Assembly: GCA_002104985.1 (NCBI GenBank) | Contig: MCGO01000151.1 | Coordinates: 1 to 64,000 of the forward strand | Direction: 5' to 3' | DNA: 64,000 nt | From: Rhizoclosmatium globosum | Lineage: Eukaryota; Chytridiomycota; Chytridiomycetes; Chytridiales; Chytriomycetaceae | In this document: positions 21,909 through 57,495 of the stretch, one piece after another | Numbering within the stretch: the stretch's first letter is position 1 | How the letters are laid out: each line of letters opens with the position of its first letter | The notes under the pieces: model-generated | Databases searched by the model: none | What the model was told of the DNA's origin: nothing | Seen by the model: only the letters and a program-made list of their open reading frames with translations | Translations under genes and position numbers: made by a program

Positions 21909-24900
21909 CTACTCATCAATTAATGTATCAGTGCTCTCTTGACTCGATTCGTTGAGTAACAGAGGTTTGGCTGTCTCCGTCAGTTCCTCAACACATTCAA
22001 ACTCTACTTCCATACTGTACATGACTCTGTTGACTACTTCGGCTACAAGTTCTTCCACAAGCGCGAAATCAATTGGTATCTCATTAGTCGTCGTCTGAAC
22101 ATCGCGTTCCTCTGAACCCTTCTCTGTATCCATCTCAAATTCAGTGTCAGAATGTGATGTTTGGTTTAGGTGGGGAACGTTTTCGCTGGTAAATTCTCTT
22201 GAAGGTTGCGCATCCAAAGTTTCTGCATCCACGACAGGTTCCAAGTCTGTCCTCATTTTAAATACATCCTCAGCGGTGGCTGATGGGTCAGTGCCAGCTC
22301 CATTATTTTCATCCGTGATTTCTCTGTCTTCATTATTATCAATGACGACAGCCTCATTATTCTCGTTAAGATCCGACTCGTTCGTTACAGCAATATGAAC
22401 TTCAACTTCCAGAATATTATTTGTAGTGGTCGCAGCAATATCCATCGGGTTTACAGCACTGTCGAAATCGACTTCAGCTTCCAGGATGTTATTCGTAGTG
22501 GTCGCAGCAATATCCATCGGGTTTACAGTACTGTCGAAATGGACATTAGCTTCCAGAATATTATTCGTAGCGAGCGCGGTGATTTCTGTTGGGCCATTCT
22601 CTTCCAAGACTTCACCCGTTTCAAGGTTGGTATTAAGGTCACTCGAGTCTGTATCCAACTTCTGTTGAGGATCAATATGAGTATGAATTTGCAGATCTGC
22701 GAGAAGCGCATCAGCTTCAGTAATATCTTGATCATTGGAGCTGGTATACAAGACTCCGCACTTGCTACTTTCGTTGATAGACCCGTTTTTGGGGTCCGTA
22801 TCCAATGGATCCTCAGTCTGAAGATTGATATCAAGTTGCTGTTCAGTATCGACAAGATTCTCGGCAGCTTGAAGTTCATCTCGCACAATCACATCAACGC
22901 CTTCGTCACACAACCCACCCTCATCCAAAACCTCACACTCACCGCCAACATCTACAGAAACCCCACAAAGACTCTCCGCAACATACCCACGATACACCTC
23001 AACAACAACCTCCCTCTCAACACCAACCTCACCAACCTCAGTCCCCAACAAAACCTCATCACAACTCCACTCCGCCGCCACACTCCCCTCAAACAAAACC
23101 TTCATCTCCGCTCCAAGAACCCTCACCCCCTTCCCACTCACCACAACCCCCTCACCCCCTCTCTCTCCACCCCCAAGACACCCCATCGACCGCACACGCA
23201 CAGGCGTCCCCCCAACAGGCGTCCCAAAACTCTCCCTCGACCCCCAAGAACTCCCACTCCCACTCCTCACCCCACCCCCCGCCTCCTCCTCCACATCCAC
23301 ATCCACAACCTCACACTTCCCATCCACAAGCACAGGATACATCTCAATCAGCAGCGTGATCACGCTTAGGCAGAGGTACCGCGTCTCGTAGGGACTGTGT
23401 TTCCCGGCGTCGTGTGGGAAGAGGGAGGCGGCGAGGAAGCCGGATATGGAGGGGGTTGGGGATGTTGTTCCTGTTTTCGCGGTTGATATTCTGTTGTGTG
23501 TGTGTAGGTGCATGGGGAGGAGGTTAGGTTATTTAGAGGTGGGATTAAGGGAGGGGAGGGGTTTTTACTTGTGGAGGTGGGAGAAGAGGGTGCGGAAGTA
23601 TTCGTTTGTGATGAGGTTGGTTTGGACGCATATTCTTTTGAGGGTTGCGTGTTCTTTGATGTATGGGGTTTCTAGAGGGAGCAACAATGAGATTACAATA
23701 TAGAGTGTACGGATATCAACTTACTTAACAGCAGTTGCTGAATTGGACGCGTTAGAATAAACGTTTCACAGAACGTGAATGGTCCAATGGCCGAATTCAG
23801 CAAATGTCTCAACGCAAGAATAAATCCAGAAGCTAGTTTCGACCGTGTAGCAGTGGCAATACATTCAGCCCTCGAATACACAATCGATTCAGGCAACGTC
23901 GCCGCCGCCACAGCCGCATTATTATACGCCATCTTCTCCTCTACTCCAAAAAATAATCAGTACCCCAAGCCACCTTAAAAAACCCACAAACCTCTCCCCT
24001 CAATCTCCTCACACAACCCCCTCAAAACCTCCAAATCACTCAACCGCTCCCAACACCGCTTCTTCACAGGACTCGTACCCCCAACCGTCTTCCGAAACCA
24101 CGTCGGCCGCCTCCCCTGCGTCCCAACCGCCCGAATCCCTCCTCCACCCCCACCACCACCTCCTCCAAACTTGGAATCAACAGAAACATTCGACATGGTC
24201 CGAACCCTCCCAAACCCAAACCCGATTTTCTTTTCAGGGCTACTATCCCCTCTCTCTGACGCGTAGAACGACCCGGCGTCTGAATCGGTAACAGAGGCTC
24301 GGTCGGTGTCCGTGTTGCTGAAGAGGCTTGCGGTGGATTGACGGCGGGACCTTGTCTTCAGGATCTGCTTACACGCGAACGACGCTTTTCGGAGGAGTGA
24401 GACGCGTGGGAATGTGTGGAGTGTGGTTGTTAGATGGAGTTTTCGGAGGTGTGTGTGGAGAGGGGTGTGTGGGGATGTGAAGTGGAGGGGTGTTGTTGAG
24501 GTGTGGAAGAGTGTGGATGAGAGGGTTTCTTGGCCGTGGAGGGAGTGGAGTTGTGGTGGTTTTATGCTGTGGGATTGGGTTGTGCGGAAGAGGAAGTCGG
24601 TTTGGATTTTGGGGGATGAGAAGGCTCCAAAGTAAGCTGTGATTGTGGCGTATTTAGAATGGAACCAAGATTTTGGGTGGGTTGACTTACTGTATTTCTT
24701 GATGACTTGTGAGGCGATGTTGTCCATAATGCTGGAATCAATTCCAAACACAAATCCAACGTCCGCGTATACAGTGTTCTTGAATCCAGCTTTCTCGAGC
24801 GAATCAACAGACTTGAGCATTCTATAGTACACAGAAATTTCATCGCGTTTCATGACGTATATAGGTATCCTTTTATGACTCGCCCCAATGTAACAGTGTC

Positions 24901-45911: not shown

Positions 45912-48632
45912 TCAGTTCTTGGGTACCTCCTCCACGGTCTCCTTCTTTGTACTTCCAAGGTACTCTACATATGTTGAGTGGTCTCCGAAAGGTCTAAAAA
46001 CAGGTCAGAATTCGCTTCTACATCAAAGCAAATAACTCACCTCTCGCCCAACAAGGCAATCATATCCTCTCGACTCAAGACCTCCTTCTCAAGCAGCCTC
46101 TGAGCAATCAACTCAACTTGCTCCCGCTTCTCGGTAACAAGCTTCACTGTTCGATCATACGCAAAGGCGACAAGTGTTCGCACCTCCTCGTCAATCATCT
46201 TCGCAGTCTCTTCACTGTAAGGCTTTGTAAATTGTTGCTGCTCGTCCGGTCGTCCATACGACAAGCTTCCAACACGTTCATTCATTCCGTACGTCGCAAC
46301 CTGTCCATACGCCATCTTTGTCACCTTCTGCAAATCATCGGATGCACCGGTAGTAATACTGTTGAAGAAAACTTGCTCTGAAACACGTCCTCCAAGCGTC
46401 ATACACATCATATCCAAAAACTGTTCCTTAGACTGCAAATGCTGGTCCTGTGGAAGGTACTGCGCGTATCCAAGGGCAGCAGATCCACGTGGGATGATGG
46501 AGACTTTGAGGAGCGGGTTCGCGTGTTGGAGGAACCAACCGACAACAGCGTGTCCTGCCTCGTGGTACGCGACAATCTTCTTTTCATGTGGAGACAGGAC
46601 CTTGGATTTCTTCTCGAGACCGGCAATCACACGCTCGATGGCTTGTTCAAAGTGCTTTTCGGTGACGGAGTCGGCGGATCCACGGGCGGCGATGAGGGCG
46701 GCTTCGTTACAGACGTTGTGGATGTCGGCTCCGGCGAATCCGGGGGTTAAGGCTGAGAGCTTTCGGGCTAGGTTTTCAACAACGGTTTCGGCAGAGAGTT
46801 TGATTGGCTTCAAGTGGACTTTGAAAATGTCAACACGGCCCTTGATGTCTGGGCGGTCGATGGAGATGTGTCTGTCGAAACGGCCTGGACGGAGAAGGGC
46901 TGGGTCGAGAACATCAGGTCTGTTGGTACCAGCGAGAACGACAACATGCTCAGAGGAACCGAAACCGTCCATTTCAACGAGGAGTTGGTTGAGAGTAGAT
47001 TCACGCTCATCGTTTCCACCAGTCATTCCACCCTTTCCACGAGCCTTTCCGATGGCGTCAATTTCATCTGATTTGAGAAGGACAAAGTTGGTTTAAGTGT
47101 TATTGGGTAAGTTAGTTTGACATACCAATGAAAATAATAGCTGGAGCCATCTTCTTTGCATTCGCAAACAAGTCACGGACACGAGAAGAACCAACACCGA
47201 CAAACATTTCGACGAATTCAGATCCAGAGACGGACAAGAAAGCGACTCCAGCTTCTCCGGCAGTCGCCTTTGCCAGGAGAGTTTTACCGGTACCTGGTGG
47301 ACTGTACATCATTGTTAGCTAATGATTCTCCCTTCCCAAATGCCGGCACTACTCGCAAGCAATCTCGACTCTTTCACTTTCAACGAACATGCTCGCTTCA
47401 CTCGCACAGCATTCACAAAATTGAAAGAGACTTACCCAGACAAAACAGCTCCTTTAGGAATCTTTGCTCCAAGCCTCTCATACACCTCTGGATCCTTCAA
47501 AAACTTGACAAACTCCATAATCTCTTCCTTCGCCTCATCCATCCCCGCCACATCCTTAAACTTCACCTTCACATCAGTCTCCTGATTAAACAATTTCGCT
47601 CTTGACTTCCCAATCCCGAAAATCCCGTTCGCACCACCGGCACCACCGCCAGCACCACCCGCACGTCTAGACATCCAGACGAGACCACCGAGGAGGAGGA
47701 GGGTAGGAGCGAAGTTGAGGGCCAGGTTTGTTAACGAGGTTTCGTTCGTGAATGAGACCGGGATGCGTTCTCTTGTAGGGATATTGAGTTCACGTTGGGC
47801 GAGTTCGAGGGAGCGTTCGAAGGAGTCTACGGAGCCGATGGAGAAGTGGTAGCCTGACCCGTTGGGGTTTGAGTTGTTGCGCATTGGAGCATCGGGGCGG
47901 AGGAAGACACGGACCATGGATCTGTTTACGACTTGGAGGGATTCGACAAAGCTAAGTTGGTTGGTCGATAGAGATTAGTCAGTGATCAAGGGGGCATCTC
48001 AAAGACGCTTTTTACCCTTTATCCAGCATTTCGACACGGAACTGGTGCCATGTAATTGGCTCAGATTGAGGCTGAGTGGAGAGGAAGTAGGCAATGAGGA
48101 ACGCAGAGGTGACTGCGTAGTACACGTGGTTTGCATTAAATTTGAAGGAAAAGAGCTCAATGTGATCAGCTGGAGGAGGAGTCTTTTTCGACTTTTCTGT
48201 GAGAGTTTTAAAGCATTAGCCTATGGTATAAGGGTATTAAGAGCACGTACTCTTCTTTGGAGGTTCCTCCTCATCCTCCTCTTGCTCCTCCTTTTTCTTT
48301 TTGTTATCTTTTTTATCGTCCTTGTTGTCCTTGTTCTCGTCTGGTTCCTGTTGAGAAGACTGCGAAGGTTTGTCGTCCTTCTTTCCCTTTTCGGCACTTG
48401 GTTCTTTGAAGAAGGCCTCGAATCCCTTTGGCGCATTTTGTCGAGCGTTTAAAAAGAGATCGTTTTTGGTGAGAGAGTGTGGGCCCAGCGAGAAGGCGCG
48501 GGTCTGGCTAACCCTAAGTAGGCTCGAGTGCGGGTTGGGGTTAGAGCAGGCGGTAACCCTAACCCTAAGACTGCTTGCACAGCTGTCTCGGTGGATGCTG
48601 CGAACGACGATCCGCGGAAGTGTTCGGTGCAT
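45912..48632 (-). CDS. AFG3: Mitochondrial m-AAA protease subunit (AFG3/Yta10/Yta12 type)
   Basis: ATP- and zinc-dependent protease of the inner mitochondrial membrane, facing the matrix, for membrane-protein quality control and ribosome assembly. Residue order: Arg/Ser-rich presequence ([17 protein letters not shown]), a long Lys/Glu/Asp-rich matrix segment (48240-48420), the FtsH extracellular-type domain, a second membrane segment ([16 protein letters not shown], 47690-47735), AAA module with the [19 protein letters not shown] block, Walker [11 protein letters not shown] (split by an intron near 47310-47435), Walker B IIFIDEID across intron 47071-47127, and [21 protein letters not shown] (46855-46910). 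The protease has zinc motif HEAGH (46545-46562) followed by [20 protein letters not shown]. The last exon ends ETVEEVPKN. The start is the ATG at 48632, the first Met of the presequence. Confidence 0.95.
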
Positions 48633-48808
48633 CAATTCAGACTAACTTTGAATTTGGGGGTGACGTGTTTGTCTCAAAGTTCTGAAATGATTTGAAAAAC
48701 AGAAAATCGATGAAACAACAAAAGAAATCTGTTTTGATTTGTTGGTTTCCTTCCTTTCCTTTTCCCTTTCCCACACTTTCTTTCCCAAGTATTCACACAC
48801 TTGAATAA

Positions 48809-50051
48809 ATGAAGTGGAAACTTGGACGCGTTGTGGGAAGAGGCGGAAGCTGTGTCGTGAGGAGAATCAAGCAGGAAGGTTCGCATTCTGAAGTTAAATA
48901 CTGTGCAAAGGTAGGTTTTAATTACTTCTTTGAATGCATTCTCTCTAATCCGTCATACAAGCAGATTATCAGATTGGATTCCCTGGCAAAGTATGAACGT
49001 GATTCAGCAATCAGAGAGGTCAAGCTACTCAAGACAATCCCATCACATCCACACATTCTCTCTCTATCCGACTCTTTTTCCGTTGCTGGTAACCTATACC
49101 TTGTCACTTTGTTTTGTGAAGGTCCGTGCTCTGTGACCCCTTCCAACTCCCTCTAACCCACCCAAAAACACACTCTAACCACTCACATCAGGTGGCGACC
49201 TCCACACATTCATCCGTTCACACCCTTCAAACAACCTCCCACCATTAACCCTCTTCCCACTCCTCTCCCAACTCCTCTCCGCAATAAAACACTTGCACGC
49301 AATCCCCCTCCTCCACCGTGACATCAAATCAAAAAACATATTCCTCGACGCTTCAAAGACGCACTTGAAACTGGGTGATTTTGGGATCGCCGTACCTGGA
49401 ACGCACGCCATGACAGCTGTTGGGACGCCTAATTCCATGGCTCCCGAAGTTCTTTCTGGTACGGAGTGCGGGTATGGCGTGGAAGCGGATTGTTGGAGTC
49501 TCGGTGTTGTCGTGTATGAAATGGGGACGGGGAGGGTTCCCTTTCATGCGGCCAGTCTTGAACGGGTTGTTGAGAAGATTCAAAGGGGTGTTATGGACCC
49601 ATTTGATTTGGAGGGTGATTTCTTTGTGGATAAAGTGTGGAAGGAAGTTGTGGAGGGGTTGTTGAGAAAGAATGTGAAGGATCGGTTTCGGATTTGTGAT
49701 GTTGAGGAGTGTATTGAGAGGTGGAATCAAGTACAGATAAGGGAGGAAAAAGAGGCACTTGAAATGGAGGAGCGATTGAAGAAGCGGCGGTCAGATTTGC
49801 CAGTTGGTGGGAGACAATTACCGCCAGTGTCTTACTTTGTATCCCTTGACGAAGGAGTGAACAGGAAACCTGATTTTCACGCACTGGAAGTTAAAATGAA
49901 GGAATTGGAAAGCAAAGTGGGGTTGTACGTTATCCAGCGTGTGTTGGCAAGTTCAAACGAAAGACAAGTCGTTTCACTCACTCCACAAGAGCAAAATGAA
50001 GTTGTACAGTTACGAAATGAGTTGAGAACTTGTTTCGATGTGTGTTTTTGA
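48809..50051 (+). CDS. NEK-like serine/threonine protein kinase
   Basis: Three exons: 48809-48910, 48965-49121 and 49191-50051, with GT-AG introns. It has a Gly-rich loop (VVGRGGSCVV), VAIK-type Lys in KYCAK, the catalytic loop LLHRDIKSKNIFL (49308-49346), DFGIAV (49378-49395), VGTPNSMAPEVL (49415-49455), and DCWSLGVVVYEMGTGRVPF (49490-49545). The HRDIKSKNIFL block is typical of NIMA-related kinases, which act in mitosis and on cilia. The tail has basic coiled coil (EEKEALEMEERLKKRRSDL). There is no other domain. The family call is by motif only; a general Ser/Thr kinase remains possible. Confidence 0.85.
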
Positions 50052-50121
50052 TTTTTTATATAAAAAATTACATTTCTTTGGTAAACGTTTCAAAAGTACT
50101 GAAACGACATCAATATCGCCA

Positions 50122-50454
50122 ATGGCTGTAAGAAACGCAGCCACCTCGAACGACAAAGCAGCGAAAGATTTGCGGCGGCACGCACGACTTCGTGAAGTGC
50201 AAGTAATCAATGGGGAAGATGGTAAACGCCTCAGTGACCTTCTCTTTCACGAGTACGGCTTGCGAGACATCTGTGATGTGCACTGGACTCCAGAGTAAGA
50301 TCCATTTCTTCCGCTTTTGATCTAACAACCCATAACAAGTGAACTGGAAGGCGAGGTTGGATTCACAACCCTTCGACATATCGTGAATGCTCGAGTGGTT
50401 CCCCTACTGACGCTGATGACATTGAGCTGCGATTCATACACCAACTCATGTTAG
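50122..50454 (+). CDS. Hypothetical small two-exon gene
   Basis: ATG at 50122; a GT-AG intron 50295-50339 joins EYGLRDICDVHWTPE-type sequence to DELEGEVGFTTLRHIVNARV, giving about 95 residues. It is basic at the N-terminus and I recognise no domain. It follows the kinase stop by 70 bp on the same strand. Another open stretch after it (50465-50625) reads KTYLLRKGNNSFKRFMELRF on the plus strand and may be a further exon of the same unrecognised or decayed gene. Confidence 0.35.
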
Positions 50455-50673
50455 TTGACTGAATTGACGGCGATTCGGGGGGTGCCCGAAACGAGATTGG
50501 GAAGTATCTGTGCAAGAAGACTTATCTGCTTCGCAAGGGAAACAACTCGTTCAAACGGTTTATGGAGCTGCGATTCTTTCAATATTTGGGTCTTGTGAAT
50601 GGGGGCACTGGCTAATGTAGGTTGCACTTTATGATTTGAATTAACACTCATATGGCTGTAAAGGGGAGAAGAA

Positions 50674-51216
50674 ATGCCAGTTCCAAACAGCTGTTTAGCT
50701 GCTAATGTTAATAGCTTTCTCGATATGCAGTTTATCACGAAAAATGTCGGAGGGACTAAAATGAAAGCTCTAAATGCGCCATTAATATGTGGCGTCTTTA
50801 ACGGAGATTCAAAAGCAGTGCTTGCTCTTCCTCAAGTATGTTTGGCGGGTATATCAGCTGCATTGATGCAGCTTTGCTGTAATGTACCGATGGAAGAGGT
50901 GGCCGTTCCGTGTTTTTCGGCGACAGCTTTGGAATTTCGGTTTTGTCTTGTAACAACAAAAATGGATAGGCACAGAAAACTTATGTTTCGTATTCATTCT
51001 CTTGATGGGATATCGTTAGATAATCAAACTGAGGCGATATGTCCCAAAACACAGGCTCAATCAGTTTTGAATACCTTTAAGAAGTTTCAAACGTTTGCGA
51101 GTAATATGAACTCAATAATTGTAAAGAAGAATGTGTTTCTTGGCGAGACAATCAGCCCAGAAGACATTTTTGATGAAATTGATTGGATCAGGTCTCACAA
51201 AAACTACACAGCTTGA
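50674..51216 (+). CDS. Hypothetical 180-residue protein
   Basis: Intronless ORF. It contains a Cys/Ala/Leu-rich hydrophobic stretch (ALPQVCLAGISAALMQLCC, about residues 51-69), a basic middle and an acidic C-terminal helix (PEDIFDEIDWI). No signal peptide and no family I recognise. It may be the main exon of a gene that begins in the open stretches at 50122-50625, but I found no join that keeps frame with confidence. Confidence 0.45.
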   Translation: MPVPNSCLAANVNSFLDMQFITKNVGGTKMKALNAPLICGVFNGDSKAVLALPQVCLAGISAALMQLCCNVPMEEVAVPCFSATALEFRFCLVTTKMDRHRKLMFRIHSLDGISLDNQTEAICPKTQAQSVLNTFKKFQTFASNMNSIIVKKNVFLGETISPEDIFDEIDWIRSHKNYTA

Positions 51217-51353
51217 AAAACGAAGGTCTTTACTTTGAAAAATAAAGAGCTATTATTAAGTTTTGGAAGCATGAGTTTAAGTTTGAGTTTTGGAAGCGGT
51301 TCAACGTCCATTATTCCCACAGAAAAGGGATGAGACCCCTTCAAATCCACAGC

Positions 51354-51360
51354 TATAAAA
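51354..51360 (+). promoter_or_regulatory. TATA box of the Gly/Tyr-rich gene
   Basis: Sequence tataaaa, 64 bp before the ATG at 51424, followed by a pyrimidine-rich run ending cattcag, as at many strong fungal start sites. A short 5' leader of about 30 nt would follow. Confidence 0.55.
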
Positions 51361-51423
51361 ACTAACGGCTCTTCCCTGTTCTTTCTTTCCATTCAGAAAA
51401 AAACAATCTCAAACAACCTCAAA

Positions 51424-51916
51424 ATGCAATACTTCCCTCAATCTGAATGCTACGACCAGTCTTTCATCGGAGCTCAATCCCCTTTCCGTCGTTACCCTGT
51501 CAAGTTCCAGGCCAGACCATGGTACTCTTCCTCCGACATGTCTCTCGGTCTCCAAGGTTACGAGTGTCCTCTTGGATACTCTGGGCTTGATTTCAACCGC
51601 GGTCTTGGTCAACGCTACTATGGTCGTCAGGTGAGTCTTCGCATCCTCTATACAACGTAGTATTAACGTTATTATATAGAATATTGGACGCGGTGGTTTC
51701 ACCAGCCCTGTGTTGAACGCGCTTGAGCGCAGGTGTTACGAGAACCAGGCTTTGCATGGAAACTGGCGTTTTGGTGTTAACGGACATGATGGATTTGGGC
51801 AACAGCGTGGTTTCAACGCGATTGATGGTCTTTACGGTTCATGTGGTGGAATGGGTGGAATCAGTCGTGTTGGTGGGTATGGTCAAGGTTTCAATCAGGC
51901 TCAGGAATGGTGTTGA
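51424..51916 (+). CDS. Small Gly/Tyr/Arg-rich protein, unknown
   Basis: Two exons (51424-51630, 51680-51916), GT-AG intron of 49 nt, 147 residues in frame. The composition is biased to Gly, Tyr, Phe, Arg, Gln and Asn, with motifs such as GLGQRYYGR, NIGRGGF and GGYGQGFNQA, and few Lys or Glu. It resembles low-complexity, condensate-forming or structural proteins. There is no signal peptide or membrane segment. A clear TATA box 64 bp upstream, a short leader and an AATAAA at 52003 suggest high or stage-specific expression (inference). I do not recognise a family. Confidence 0.7.
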
Positions 51917-52194
51917 ATGAATGCTTACTTCTTTATTGTATTTCATGTTGGTGCATCCCTTTTTCTGCTTTGTTTGCTTCGTGCTGTGTTTTGTTGATGT
52001 TTGAATAAAGGTTTAATGTGCCACATCCTGCTTTTCAACCGGAACACATCTCTTACTATATTCATAAAGCTTAATTGACATAAGTTATCTGTTTTTAGAG
52101 AGCCACAAGCAATGCTTGTCGTTATTGGACCGTTTTTACAAAATTCTATGTTTTGACACACTTGATCATACTATTTATCACGCTACCCTCAACT

Positions 52195-52230
52195 GCCTTC
52201 TTAGCTCAGTTGGTTAGATCGCCTGCCTCA
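52195..52230 (+). pseudogene. 5' half of a tRNA gene, elongator-Met-like
   Basis: Acceptor GCCTTCT (52195-52201), TA, D-arm GCTCAGTTGGTTAGATC (52204-52220; GCTC/GATC has one mismatch) and the 5' anticodon stem CCTGC (52222-52226), then the loop start CTCA. tRNA similarity ends in the anticodon loop. The matching 3' half appears at 55582. Confidence 0.65.
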
Positions 52231-52673
52231 AAAAATGGTTTACAAGTACTCTGGGGACAAGACACTTCTGGGATGCATGCTCTGGACTGTGTTCGCAATT
52301 TCGCAAACCATGTTGGGAACATGAGTAAATCATTAATTTGATAAAAATGAGGTTTGTAACGCTAGTATGACACTTTCGCGTTATGTGAACAGACTTTAAA
52401 CTTGCTCCTAAGTTCTCTATTCTATAAACATTGGTAGATTCCTTTTTTTAACGAGTTCTTACGGAACCCTTTCACCTTAAACCGCAAGGTTCATTTTCTT
52501 AGCATAGCAAAATGCCCTCCTTTCTTCCTCATAATGCATTTGAGATCAGCAGTTTGGGTAGACTGTGGCTGCATAACCAAAAAAAAAGAAAGAATCAAAT
52601 GATAAATGGATTCGGGGCCCAAAAAGGATCCTATACTTTGACGTAATTAGTACATCTGTTCTCTTCGCCTTCT
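52231..52673. other. Gene-poor spacer
   Basis: A/T-rich, with no supported gene. It lies between the 5' tRNA half and the low-confidence minus-strand ORF. Confidence 0.5.
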
Positions 52674-52914
52674 TCAAAGATTTTGTTCTTTCAACAATGC
52701 CTCTTTGTCTTCTCTGAACGAGGCAAGCACCTGCGAAGCCTCATCAAAAGTGCGCACCCACAAAGAAGAACTGACGATGATTTCCATGGTCACAAGAGAT
52801 TGTGCGTTATCGATATCCTCGGTGTTGTTTTTGTTTCTGTTTAAGGCGGCGTTGAAGATGTGATCTGAGGTGGTTTGCAGTAGTTCAAGCGCGTCAAGGA
52901 CACGTCCTCGACAA
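52674..52914 (-). CDS. Possible C-terminal exon of an unknown protein
   Basis: Open minus-strand frame of about 80 codons with ordinary protein composition: GRVLDALELLQTTSDHIFNA, AQSLVTMEIIVSSSLWVRTF, EASQVLASFREDKEALLKEQ, then stop. An upstream gtaagc and acagTC suggest an intron at about 52950, and no clean start is seen. It may be a gene remnant; no family is recognised. Confidence 0.3.
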
Positions 52915-53768
52915 CATCGAGTTGATCGGTTCCTTGTCTTATTGCTGGATGAAGATGACTGTTTTGCTTACCGTTTCAACGCTATTGAGGTACATACGAA
53001 TCCTACTTGCTTGAATCATACACAGTCAATAATGAACGTTTTACAGTCATGGCGTTTGCCAAACGGTTGTCCCGCCTACCTTTCACGTACCTGCTCAGGC
53101 TCAACAGTATAATCCAATCAGTTCGCAGCATCAATGTCCACTGCTAAGCTATGTCCACCAGCCAATCTACCACCCAAACATTTCAATCAAATGCATAACA
53201 TAATCTTACATCACATTCCTACTTATCCCTTCCCATTCAACCCACTACTGGCCATTCACATACCTCAACCTAACCCATGTGATTCCTCTGGCGAAGACAT
53301 ACGTGTTGCACCAATTTTCGTTGAAGCTACGTGATTCACATTTGGCATCGCTTTGAAGGAGTCGGAGGTACATAATCGAATCGAATCAAAATAACAGTCA
53401 TAGCGGTGAACAAATCTAAAGTTAACAATAGAATCGAATCCGCTGTAGCGGCTAAAGTGCGTGCAGCGTCGGACTGAATCTATAGGGAATTGAAGTGTTA
53501 TAAAAAAGTGAGTACAATCCGTCCACAATATCGAACATTGAAAGCGTTACAGATGAAGCCAGGTGGACAGGTGAAGGAATTTGAAGTCCAGAATCGAATT
53601 AAATCGGCCGTTGTTGGTGCCGGAATTTGATATCCAGCATTGCATCATATCATTCGTTGCACTGAAGAAGTTGAGAGTGGAACTGAATTCTACGGCTTTC
53701 AAGGTGTCGGAATTCCTAAAACGAATTAAATCAGCCATTTCTGGAAAGGAGTTTAAAGTCCTGAATCA
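52915..53768. other. Spacer with weak gaatcgaatYaaatc repeats
   Basis: No supported gene. Between about 53360 and 53760 the phrases gaatcgaatc, gaatcgaattaaatcggcc and aacgaattaaatcagcc recur with fragments of the same wording (ggaatttgaagtcc, ggagtttaaagtcc). It looks like an old degenerate tandem array leading into the minisatellite. Confidence 0.4.
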
Positions 53769-55033
53769 AATTTGGTTACCACTGCATTTTGGTTGGATAT
53801 CGCTGCGCTTTGGTTTGAAGTCGCTACACTTTGGTTTAGTCGCTACACTTTGGTTCGAAGTCGCTACACTTTGGTTTAGTCGCTACACTTTGGTTATGAA
53901 GTCGCTGCGCTTTGGTTTAATCGCTGCGCTTTGGTTTAGTCGCTACACTTTGATTCGAAGTCGCTACACTTTGGTTTAGTCGCTACACTTTGGTTTGAAG
54001 TCGCTACACTTTGGTTTAGTCGCTACACTTTGGTTTGAAGTCGCTACACTTTGGTTTAGTCGCTACACTTTGGTTCGAAGTCGCTACACTTTGGTTTAGT
54101 CGCTACACTTTGGTTATGAAGTCGCTGCGCTTTGGTTTAATCGCTGCGCTTTGGTTTAGTCGCTACACTTTGGTTCGAAGTCGCTACACTTTGGTTTAGT
54201 CGCTACACTTTGGTTATGAAGTCGCTGCGCTTTGGTTTAATCGCTGCGCTTTGGTTTAGTCGCTACACTTTGGTTATGAAGTCGCTGCGCTTTGGTTTAA
54301 TCACTACACTTTGGTTTAGTCGCTGCGCTTTGCTTTAGTCGCTACACTTTGGTTTAATCGCTGCGCTTTGGTTCGAAGTCACTGTGCTTTGGTTTAATCG
54401 CTGTGCTTTGGTTTAATCGCTGCACTTTGGTTATGAAGTCGCTACACTTTGGTTTAGTCGCTACGCTTTGGTTTAATCGTTGCGCTTTGGTTGTGAAGTC
54501 GCTACACTTTGGATTAGTCGCTACGCTTTGGTTTAATCGCTGCGCTTTGGTTCGAAGTCGCTACACTTTGGTTATGAAGTCGCTACACTTTGGTTTAGTC
54601 GCTACACTTTGGTTTAATCGCTACACTTTGGTTTAATTGCTACACTTTGGTTTAATCGCTACACTTTGGTTTAGTCGCTGCGCTTTGGTTTAATCGCTAC
54701 ACTTTGGTTTAATCGCTGCGCTTTGGTTCGAAGTCACTGTGCTTTGGTTTGAAGTCGCTATACTTTGGTTTAATTGCTACACTTTGGTTTAGTCGCTGCG
54801 CTTTGGTTCGAAGTCACTGTGCTTTGGTTGTGAAGTCGCTACACTTTGGTTTAGTCGTTACACATTGGTTATGAAGTCGCTGCGCTTTGGTTTAGTCGCT
54901 ACGCTTTGGTTTATTCGCTACACTTTGGTTTAATCGCTGCGCTTTGGTTCGAAGTCGCTACACTTTGGTTATGAAGTCGCTACACTTTGGTTTGGTCGCT
55001 GCGCTTTGGTTTAATCGCTGCGCTTTGGTTTGG
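53769..55033. repeat. 1.26-kb minisatellite, 19-22 bp units
   Basis: Roughly 60 head-to-tail units. The core is TCGCTACACTTTGG or TCGCTGCGCTTTGG, joined by one of a few linkers: TTTAG, TTTAA, TTCGAAG, TTTGAAG or TTATGAAG. The two core forms and the linkers are not random: a block of about 100 bp with the same series of variants recurs near 53850, 54070 and 54180, a higher-order repeat. The translated ORFs (RYTLV, KSLHFGLVATLWF) are by-products of the unit. Confidence 0.95.
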
Positions 55034-55581
55034 TCATTTGCTTCGGTTTAGTTTCTGCGCACGCTGGGCTTGGTTTAACGTCACTACACTGTTATTGTTG
55101 AAGGTTGTTGGACTGTCGCTCTTGATTGTCTTTCCTTTCCACTTGTGACCAACCGCTGCAAGTCTTCTCTGCTTATTGCCGCTGTATGTTAACGCGTTGC
55201 CGTTTTTTGTTGAATTTTTTGGATTGCAAGGGGGGTGATGAGCGAAAGTTTTCATTAAAATTATGGCTACCTTCCAATTACATCAACGATCAAAAAGCAA
55301 TAAGTGCAAATTGAGAGCCCGGAAACGTCTGCTATCTGTCGGATATTGACAATTGATGCAGAGGATATTATGCCCAGTCTGAAATTGCCAGATTCTTCGG
55401 CCATCCTTCCTCCATAGAAGGCTTCTTTAAGACCACTGTAAACCGACTCGGTCTTCATTTAAATTTAATCTTTGTGAATTAGGCCGCTCATGAAAGATTG
55501 CCAAAAGTCCAAAACGTTTGTTACTTCGAGTTTAGTGAATATTATAATAGTTAAGGCTTATAACATTAGTAAGAACAGCTA
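55034..55581. other. Gene-poor spacer
   Basis: No supported coding frame between the end of the minisatellite and the tRNA 3' half. Confidence 0.5.
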
Positions 55582-55616
55582 GCAGGAGGCCACCAGTTCA
55601 AATCTGGTAGAAGTTA
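55582..55616 (+). pseudogene. 3' half of a tRNA gene, complementary to the half at 52195
   Basis: GCAGG (55582-55586, perfect complement of the 5' anticodon stem CCTGC), variable AGGCC, T-arm ACCAG-TTCAAAT-CTGGT (55592-55608) and acceptor AGAAGTT (55609-55615) with discriminator A. Acceptor pairing with GCCTTCT is Watson-Crick at positions 3-7, wobble at 1 and mismatched at 2. No matching 5' half lies directly upstream. Confidence 0.6.
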
Positions 55617-56617
55617 GCCTTTTGGAGGATGTAGAGAAGGTTGCAGGTGGTTGGTTGGTATATGGAACTATGACTGACGTTCTTTCCATCAATGATTTCG
55701 TTAAAGTATTAAACATAGATCATTGAAGTATTTAACAGCGTTTGTGTGCAGCAGCTTATGACTGAGAAATTTCGTACGATGAAAGACAGCGATACTTCAC
55801 CTCAGACCAGACATAGAAAGACCCAATATATAAACTCAATGACAGCGCTGTTCCTTTCATTTTCAGTTCATTCTCTAGACGGTGTCATACGATCTGAATC
55901 AATGCCAGAACTCAAAAACAAACCGAAGAAGAGTGACCTAACCGTTAACTGCAGGGTCCTCTATTACTTATCCTTCATTTTCGTTCATCACTGTCTTCAA
56001 AAGTTACTCAGCCTCTGAATATGATATTCAACGCCAAACAAACAAAATAAGCATTGAACAGATCATTCTTATTCTTTTTTATTGAGAGAAAAGCGTTGAG
56101 CAAATCAAAGGCCGCGGCATTAAAAACTCTCGAGTGTTGTAAAGTGTAAAAGTGTGAGTGGGCGGGGAGTTGGGGGCAATCACAGCATAGGAATACTCGT
56201 TCGACACGGTGTGGGACCTGCACACTAACCAGTCCACCGAATAGTCTATTTCAATCTGCTCGGCTTACGACTATGTCCAAACGAGGGGGGGCATCTCTGC
56301 TGTGATGGGGGATCAAGTTTGAAGTCTGGTGGTGAGATTTTTTGGATCTGTTTTCGACTGGCGACGCGTTTCTTTTATTTGCGGTTTTGGTTTGCACATG
56401 GGGGTGCAAAATTCACAGCCAATCAAAGTGCGCGTGGAGATGGCTGTGACAAGATTTTTTGTACTCCCAGTCATAACAAAGCAACACTCGCCGATGCTGT
56501 AAATGTGTCATAAAAAAGCCATTGAATCTTTGGTGAGAACTGGATTAATGAAGTCCTAAAGCGCTGACACCCTCGGAAGAACTGACAATAATATTTATTT
56601 AATCAACCCACCGTTGG
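55617..56617. other. Gene-poor spacer
   Basis: 1 kb with no supported gene; short ORFs lack recognisable motifs. Confidence 0.45.
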
Positions 56618-57085
56618 CTATTTATTGTGCCTTACGCGCTTTATCTCTGCCTTCATATCTTTATTACTGGCACCAATCGATACAGCTTTTGTCCGCTCCA
56701 CTCGCCATACATTGTTGATGAACCGCAAAATGCCCGACAGTCTGCCAAAACCATCAATGAAAAAGATATCTTCATATAATTCCTGAAAAAAAGTCTAGCC
56801 ATCTTCCCACACTGTGGTTATCTTCAGAGCTTGGAGAAAACATTCCTCCTTCCTCAGCAACTTGGGCAAAAATCCTATGACTTGTCTAGTATAGCCAAAA
56901 GACCTACAAGCTGCTGCCATACTGTGCCCTTCATCTGCAAAGAAACAGTTAAAGGATACTTGCCTTAGATTTCCTCGTCTTCCTCGTCTTCATCATCTAG
57001 CGCCTTGGTCTTCGTCATAAATTGCAGAAATAAGGGCCTTTCAAGGTGGTCCAAAATAATGTAAGACGATTTCATCGTCTTCGTG
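56618..57085 (-). pseudogene. Degenerate coding remnant, unknown family
   Basis: On the minus strand protein-like sequence runs in pieces: MKSSYIILDHLERPLFLQFM, then an acidic run LDDEDEEDEE, a stop, SMAAACRSFGYTRQVIGFLP, a second stop, and EDIFFIDGFGRLSGILRF then NNVWRVERTKAVSIG up to a stop at 56618. The codon patterns look coding and the two internal stops suggest decay. No catalytic motif is visible, so I cannot say whether it was a transposon or a host gene. Confidence 0.35.
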
Positions 57086-57413
57086 GTTGTGGCAGTTGGG
57101 TTCGTTAAACTCGCACACTTTGTAAAAAAGCCATATACCCTGTACCGTAGAGAGAAAGGTATAGGATCCGTTCCTATCCATAGAGTGATACATCACTCCA
57201 GAGTCCCTGTGTAGAGTTCGGCGAGATTACGGTTACCTTGGATCTGGGATCAGGAAGGCAGGCTCGTCAAGTTTTGATGTAAGTTTCAACAATCAGGGGT
57301 TTATTTCCTCTCAGACAAGTATTAAGACGAGTATTGAACAATAAATGATAGAATTCTATGATGACAACTTCAATTCCAAAAATAGCATTCTGTGGCTGCA
57401 AAGAAACTAAAAG
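57086..57413. other. Gene-poor spacer
   Basis: No supported gene between the degenerate remnant and tRNA-Ser. Confidence 0.45.
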
Positions 57414-57495
57414 CGACAACGGCAGGACTTGAACCTGCGCACTCAGAGAGTAATAGATTTCTAGTCTATCGCCTTAACCGCTCGGCCACGTTGTC
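57414..57495 (-). tRNA. tRNA-Ser (anticodon AGA)
   Basis: Minus strand: acceptor GACAACG/CGTTGTC, D-arm GGCCGAGCGGTTAAGGC, anticodon stem ATAGA/TCTAT with loop CTAGAAA giving AGA, a long variable arm (TACTCTCTGAGTGC, class II) and T-arm GCAGG-TTCAAGT-CCTGC. No intron is present. Confidence 0.95.

Follow-up and report, generated by a model that had tools for sequence, protein, structure and literature searches.

A tRNA-Thr(AGT) gene of Rhizoclosmatium globosum split in its anticodon loop by a minisatellite-bearing insert with relatives in other copies of the gene

The split tRNA gene and its identity

The window, a stretch of 64,000 nucleotides of contig MCGO01000151.1 of the chytrid Rhizoclosmatium globosum, holds four ordinary tRNA genes according to ARAGORN and Rfam, none of which lies at the locus considered here. 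At this locus two pieces of a single tRNA gene are parted by a long insert (Table 1). Contigs are designated below by C-numbers, with C59 being the contig of the window, and the genome searched comprises 56.9 Mb in 420 contigs. A frame of the window for an AFG3-type protease has a top hit at 78% identity and its best named hits in Rhizophagus (77%) and Rhizopus (74%), which fits a fungus of an early-diverging lineage. Elsewhere in the window, a tandem repeat with a 72-bp unit (22399-22570, 2.4 copies) falls within an overlapping reading frame. The unjoined halves gave no Rfam tRNA match in the segment 52000-55800 at E-values of up to 10. When joined at 52228|55568, they are read by ARAGORN as a tRNA-Thr(agt) with a 9-nt intron; the joined pieces of three further split loci discussed below are read as Thr (C146), Ser(aga) (C66) and Leu(taa) (C361), with the join points at all four loci having been picked by us.

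Table 1. Features of the split tRNA-Thr(AGT) locus (window coordinates) and of the related loci (contig coordinates)
Feature	Position	Strand	Remarks
5' flank	48000-52190	+	Duplicated at C146:547023-551273 (95%) and C31:52225-56453 (92%), each beside an unsplit tRNA-Thr
tRNA-Thr(AGT) 5' piece	52195-52228	+	34 nt, acceptor strand to U33; identical to intact copies
Insert in anticodon loop	52229-55567	+	About 3.34 kb, decayed; relatives at three other tRNA-Thr loci
Reading-frame remnant common to inserts	52617-52910	-	Interrupted by stop codons; might once have been a gene
Minisatellite	53800-55035	+	19-bp unit, about 62 copies
tRNA-Thr 3' piece	55568-55616	+	AGTA (34-37), intron remnant, A38 to position 73
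3' flank	55617-56816	+	97.9% and 98.0% identity with its counterparts at the two empty sites (1.2 kb compared, gaps excluded)
Related split tRNA-Thr loci	C146:247323-250276; C361:15709-12834; C66:33308-32788		5' piece, insert DNA in the same order, 3' piece

Both of the halves recognized in the original prediction exist, with boundaries that need to be moved. The CA at 52229-52230, which had been counted with the 5' half, lies outside the tRNA sequence, and the 3' half, which had been started at 55582, is readable from 55568 onward through AGTA, a 9-nt intron remnant, A38 and GCAGG. Joined at the earlier coordinates, i.e., with 52231-55581 removed, the halves give nothing in ARAGORN. The proposed pairing agrees with the ARAGORN drawing, both in the anticodon stem (CCTGC/GCAGG) and in the acceptor stem, which has five Watson-Crick pairs, one G-T wobble and one C/T mismatch. 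The 3' piece carries two acceptor changes (AGAAGTT versus AGAAGGC), and the pairing at position 2 is lost.

The gene had been described as elongator-Met-like; however, the Met(CAT) family of this genome is distinct and begins GCTCTTGTGGCTTAGTTGG. The pieces instead share identity with the intact Thr(AGT) genes of the same genome (CCTGC-CTAGTAA-GCAGG in the anticodon arm) and retain the anticodon AGT. The break was likewise expected at the intron site, which is 37/38 in canonical tRNA genes. The 5' piece departs from the intact gene directly after U33, continuing as CAAAAAATGG, which places the break at about 33/34. The 3' piece contains, at 55572-55580, a remnant of the canonical 14-nt intron (AGAACAGCT), five bases of which are gone. 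Another reading of the same letters would have the 3' piece start within the intron with one change, the anticodon then being gone. As the order at the locus is 5' half then 3' half, this is not a permuted tRNA gene; as an interrupted copy accompanied by intact paralogues, it qualifies instead as a tRNA pseudogene.

The segment 52195-52228 has exact matches at 21 other places in the genome (22 with itself) and 55582-55613 has them at 36 others, with no hits for the reversed-pattern controls in either case. These exact matches of 34 and 32 nt, along with the recurrence of the same structure on three other contigs, leave a chance resemblance or an assembly error with next to no credibility.

The tRNA-Thr(AGT) family

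Some intact copies of the gene are interrupted at the canonical 37/38 site by an intron of 14 nt. Genome-wide, 33 of the 43 exact 5' cores are paired with a 3' half under a rule allowing up to three mismatches within 100 bp of the core, which answers the call in the original prediction for a search for intact copies. By spacing, 19 of these 33 contiguous copies lack an intron, 13 have room for the 14-nt one and the remaining copy (C45) has a loop that is damaged; the intron classes rest on this spacing, with part of the copies having been read base by base, and minus-strand spacings are larger by 14 than those on the plus strand owing to pattern lengths. Three of the 13 intron-spaced copies have one additional base in the D-loop. 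Single changes occur in some of the 33, such as at the second base in C31 and in the T loop in C415; hence, the number is not a tally of proven functional genes. The tRNA-Thr of the cell presumably comes from these contiguous copies, most of which are undamaged.

The same rule leaves unpaired 10 of the 5' cores and six of the 39 3' halves. In the elongator Met family, which served as a control, all 21 halves are paired. The resulting difference in lone 5' cores (10/43 for Thr versus 0/21 for Met; Fisher 0.023) is a modest excess, whose count takes in a deletion copy and whose members are not independent of each other. The deletion copy, C57:15362, was considered as a split tRNA and turned out to have an internal deletion instead. 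Four orphan 5' pieces (C8:33722, C46:533249, C380:86149 and C380:52957) were likewise rejected, each with an intact copy 201-248 bp downstream; they resemble duplications, either tandem or chimeric, that took in upstream sequence together with the first 26-34 nucleotides of the tRNA, the breakpoint lying in the tRNA. Among the lone 3' halves, the one in C236 is directly preceded by a partial 5' half and that in C416 by a degenerate one.

The insert and its relatives at other loci

Related inserts interrupt tRNA-Thr genes at three further loci. The alignable parts of the C59, C146 and C361 inserts are about 67-80% identical, as measured in local alignments of unequal length, and large portions are unalignable; in C66 most of the insert has been lost. 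Related inserts were found in tRNA-Thr genes only, among the best candidates scored by three genome DNA searches that skip common words. One of these also matched a flank in C410, which lies outside the shared insert: the left ~430 bp of the C146 insert (247358-247786) copy, at 92% identity, the sequence that precedes the intact tRNA-Thr at C410:285861, with a frame that we take to be the end of a WD-repeat protein. At its end, the C410-derived stretch has another incomplete tRNA-Thr 5' piece, indicating that the left end of the C146 insert was rearranged, again via tRNA-Thr sequence. More generally, the left junctions vary among the loci. The C361 5' piece ends at about nucleotide 28, with nearly all of its anticodon-stem strand absent, and its locus adjoins what, by its reading frame, we take to be an HSP70/BiP-like gene and not the neighbour found at C59. 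The anticodon of the C66 copy is AGA. The C146 and C66 split loci are about 81-91% related in most aligned blocks, with the orientation of their outer flanks reversed against that of the split-tRNA segment.

The minisatellite had been thought a later gain. We found related, shorter arrays in the C361, C146 and C66 inserts; hence, the array belongs to the shared insert, with that of C59 being the longest and its dimer form confined to C59 (36/36 matches). The frame at 52617-52910 contains two internal stops and shows 62% protein identity to a frame in C146. In a codon-position test, one of 21 frame-by-partner comparisons reached p < 0.05 (22/12/9, C146-C59); the plus-strand first position of this frame coincides with third positions in the minus-strand frame that overlaps it (19/26/36, p 0.067), and the other 19 comparisons are flat. 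In the minus-strand frame, the weak excess at third positions in the C59-C146 comparison is perhaps what remains of a gene. A 274-aa query from the insert had no homologue among 1857 candidates, and within its own genome it matches only the C146, C59 and C361 inserts. Seventeen reading-frame pieces from these three inserts were compared to Pfam: a first scan gave weak matches only (E 0.011 or worse), a second had no match at a limit of 0.01, and nothing stood above cut-off. A plasmid search with 52100-52300 returned short, weak matches only (E 0.05 or worse in the best rows, covering at most 26% of the query), and a phage search with 52229-53790 had no match.

An ordinary transposon inserting with a target-site duplication might be expected from a single inserted block with four related copies. 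Nevertheless, we consider it improbable: the ends share at most about 1 bp, so that there is no target-site duplication, and the sole inverted repeat of at least 14 bp in 51900-56400 lies with one arm beyond the insert. Moreover, the left junctions are not constant, no copy was found outside tRNA-Thr, and no transposase, reverse transcriptase or endonuclease domain was detected in the 17 scanned pieces, a result that is still compatible with a non-autonomous element. The confinement to tRNA loci recalls tRNA-targeted retrotransposons such as the DRE/TRE elements of Dictyostelium and Ty1/Ty3 of yeast. However, those elements land beside tRNA genes and not within them, whereas here the insert lies inside the gene and the scanned pieces are free of any retroelement domain.

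Could the halves nevertheless give rise to a working tRNA, either by joining in trans or by removal of a 3.3-kb giant intron? In favour of this, the halves are much more conserved than the inserts at all four loci, and the C59 and C146 pieces each combine into a readable whole tRNA-Thr. Against it, C361 is without most of its anticodon-stem strand, C66 has the anticodon AGA, and the C59 acceptor lacks its position-2 pair. A cut at 37/38 would leave both C59 and C146 without the Thr anticodon; at C59, where the 5' piece leaves the tRNA after U33, it gives CAA, and a giant canonical intron was rejected on this ground. Pol III terminates at T-runs, and each of the four inserts contains runs of at least five T (4, 9, 5 and 5), making a Pol III transcript across them unlikely. 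Nor are the insert ends complementary: using 40 nt per end and 60 shuffles at each of the four loci, 37, 48, 19 and 39 of the shuffles were as good or better for C59, C146, C361 and C66, respectively. With plenty of unsplit copies being available as well, we regard a functional split tRNA as very improbable, in line with the original prediction, which had thought a giant intron or trans-joining far less likely than an inserted gene. The locus is almost certainly a dead copy of the multicopy tRNA-Thr(AGT) gene and not a new tRNA-making route, which means that eukaryotic tRNA halves lying kilobases apart do not by themselves imply trans-splicing.

The parting of 5' and 3' halves in the anticodon loop is a likeness to the trans-spliced split tRNAs of archaea. 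The differences are that the host is a eukaryote, the halves lie in order at one locus with non-complementary ends, many unsplit genes coexist with them, and several copies have an anticodon or stem lost or changed. Canonical eukaryotic introns are represented here by the 14-nt spacing of 13 of the 33 contiguous copies and by the remnant in the 3' piece. Unlike these, the insert lies at about 33/34, is more than 100 times longer, and constitutes a second, separate interruption. According to a review, Archaea are the only group for which split tRNAs are listed, eukaryotic introns are shorter than 100 nt and the yeast endonuclease cuts strictly at 37/38 (PMC4033280). A literature search of partial coverage returned no eukaryotic tRNA split in this manner.

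Empty sites, divergence and the origin of the split

We observed that the flanks of the C59 gene recur with high identity at two sites where an unsplit tRNA-Thr occupies the place of the 3.34 kb. In alignments of 1.2 kb with gaps left out, the 5' and 3' flanks are 97.4% and 97.9% identical at C146:551278 and 94.1% and 98.0% identical at C31:52129. The upstream duplication is at least 4.2 kb long. One of the unsplit genes is intronless and the other has an intron. These paralogous empty sites support the earlier proposal of a single tRNA gene into which other DNA was inserted. An unsplit paralogue exists for C361 as well, at C361:133403 (93.6% over 750 bp and 89.6% over 330 bp). Filled and empty paralogues can be viewed together in one genome. 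The 11-bp leader of the C31 site differs from that of C59, and in the upstream comparison of C31 with C59 the two 100-bp bins nearest the gene contain 15 and 14 mismatches. The unlike intron states of the empty sites, the C31 leader and these bins are as a conversion tract would leave them, an argument weakened by the fact that the 800-900 bin also has 14 mismatches.

A second line of evidence comes from the halves, which we observed to be far less diverged than the DNA between them. Over nucleotides 1-28 and 38-73 (64 nt), there are three differences between C59 and C146, two between C59 and C361, one between C146 and C361 and none between C146 and C66. Against insert divergences of 27, 30 and 33% for the first three pairs, the binomial P-values are 4.3e-6, 4.9e-8 and 2.4e-10, respectively, on one rough insert rate per pair set by us. 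At C146 and C66, insert and flank are themselves unequally diverged: the non-satellite insert is identical at 301 of 305 positions (98.7%), a count leaving out the satellite (118/129, 91.5%) and the loop with the intron (16/19), and the 3' flank at 314 of 382 (82%; 68, 93, 84 and 84% in successive 100-bp parts; Fisher 2.8e-14). This indicates that the divergence of the flanks preceded an exchange or copying of insert DNA. Between C66:32837-33273 and C146, loop and intron have changed at three of 19 positions, whereas the halves are unchanged over 64 nt, with no difference in the mature 3' half. All of these comparisons are within one genome.

The near-identity of the halves could reflect either conversion from intact genes, or recent arrival of the insert from diverged sources, or selection. 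The last is the weakest of the three choices, as parts essential to a tRNA differ, namely the stem strand in C361, the AGA anticodon in C66 and the loop and intron (3/19). Conversion gives no account of this contrast between loop or intron and halves in C146 and C66 either.

We favour, as somewhat better than an even chance, an old insertion combined with gene conversion. Under this account, DNA with a minisatellite, perhaps including a since-decayed gene, would have entered the anticodon loop at about 33/34 in a single, old event. The split loci would then have been duplicated, carrying the insert along to the four loci where it now stands. Meanwhile, ectopic conversion by intact tRNA-Thr genes would keep the halves near the functional sequence; it probably also put an unsplit gene in place of the split one at some of the sister loci, and no tRNA would be made from the halves. 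Supporting an old insertion, C59 differs from C146 and C66 about equally in the insert (73-74% identity) and in the neighbouring gene (75-78%). This gene, at 51314-51727 of the window beside the tRNA, belongs to a family that recurs near tRNA-Thr genes at 74-78% identity; its relatives include those close to the split genes in C66 and C146 (75-78%) and also ones near the unsplit tRNA-Thr genes at C146:471275 (77%) and C371:57618 (74%). Accordingly, the shared neighbour cannot date the insert and the case for an old insertion is weakened. Also against it, the insert is present in C59 alone of three close duplicates, a pattern that a single recent gain explains as simply as two losses, and a conversion confined to halves of 34-50 nt is not ideal.

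Less probably, though still to be taken seriously, the insert might be an element that is homing-like but passive: flanked by the two tRNA halves, it would be copied into empty tRNA-Thr genes by ectopic conversion or break-induced copying, its arrival in C59 being recent. This would agree with its presence in C59 and in neither close duplicate, with the unsplit paralogue of C361, with the excess similarity of the C146-C66 insert end over the flank, and with the restriction of the related inserts found to tRNA-Thr; a recent insertion would also account for the identical halves. However, no donor near the C59 insert was found (the best are at ~73-80%), the 17 scanned pieces are devoid of an endonuclease, transposase or reverse transcriptase, and, when C59 is compared with the C146 split locus, the insert has diverged to about the same degree as the neighbour gene. 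More tentatively still, the insert family might be an enzyme-less passenger specific to tRNA-Thr, which uses the exons as homology arms and is both moved and erased by ectopic conversion. If the insert does spread, it would represent an enzyme-free colonisation of a multicopy gene by DNA.

On the favoured reading of an old insertion with conversion, the family would document in nature how ectopic conversion acts on a tRNA family scattered over the genome, with young, short halves enclosing 3 kb that age between them. The situation resembles tRNA pseudogenes and intergenic conversion in yeast in involving a multicopy isodecoder family at dispersed loci that are kept alike, with some broken members. 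It differs in that the broken members here have a long, related insert at approximately the same site and near-identical halves. In yeasts, tRNA genes at dispersed sites are known to form hot spots of conversion (PMC4090602); intergenic conversion among such genes was reportedly described by Amstutz in 1985 and Heyer in 1986, both as cited there.

Finally, several tRNA-Thr genes are followed, about 0.3-2 kb to their 3' side, by a conserved short element, which is a tRNA-Ser(AGA) in the window (57413-57495) or is tRNA-like. This arrangement suggests duplicated tRNA gene pairs.
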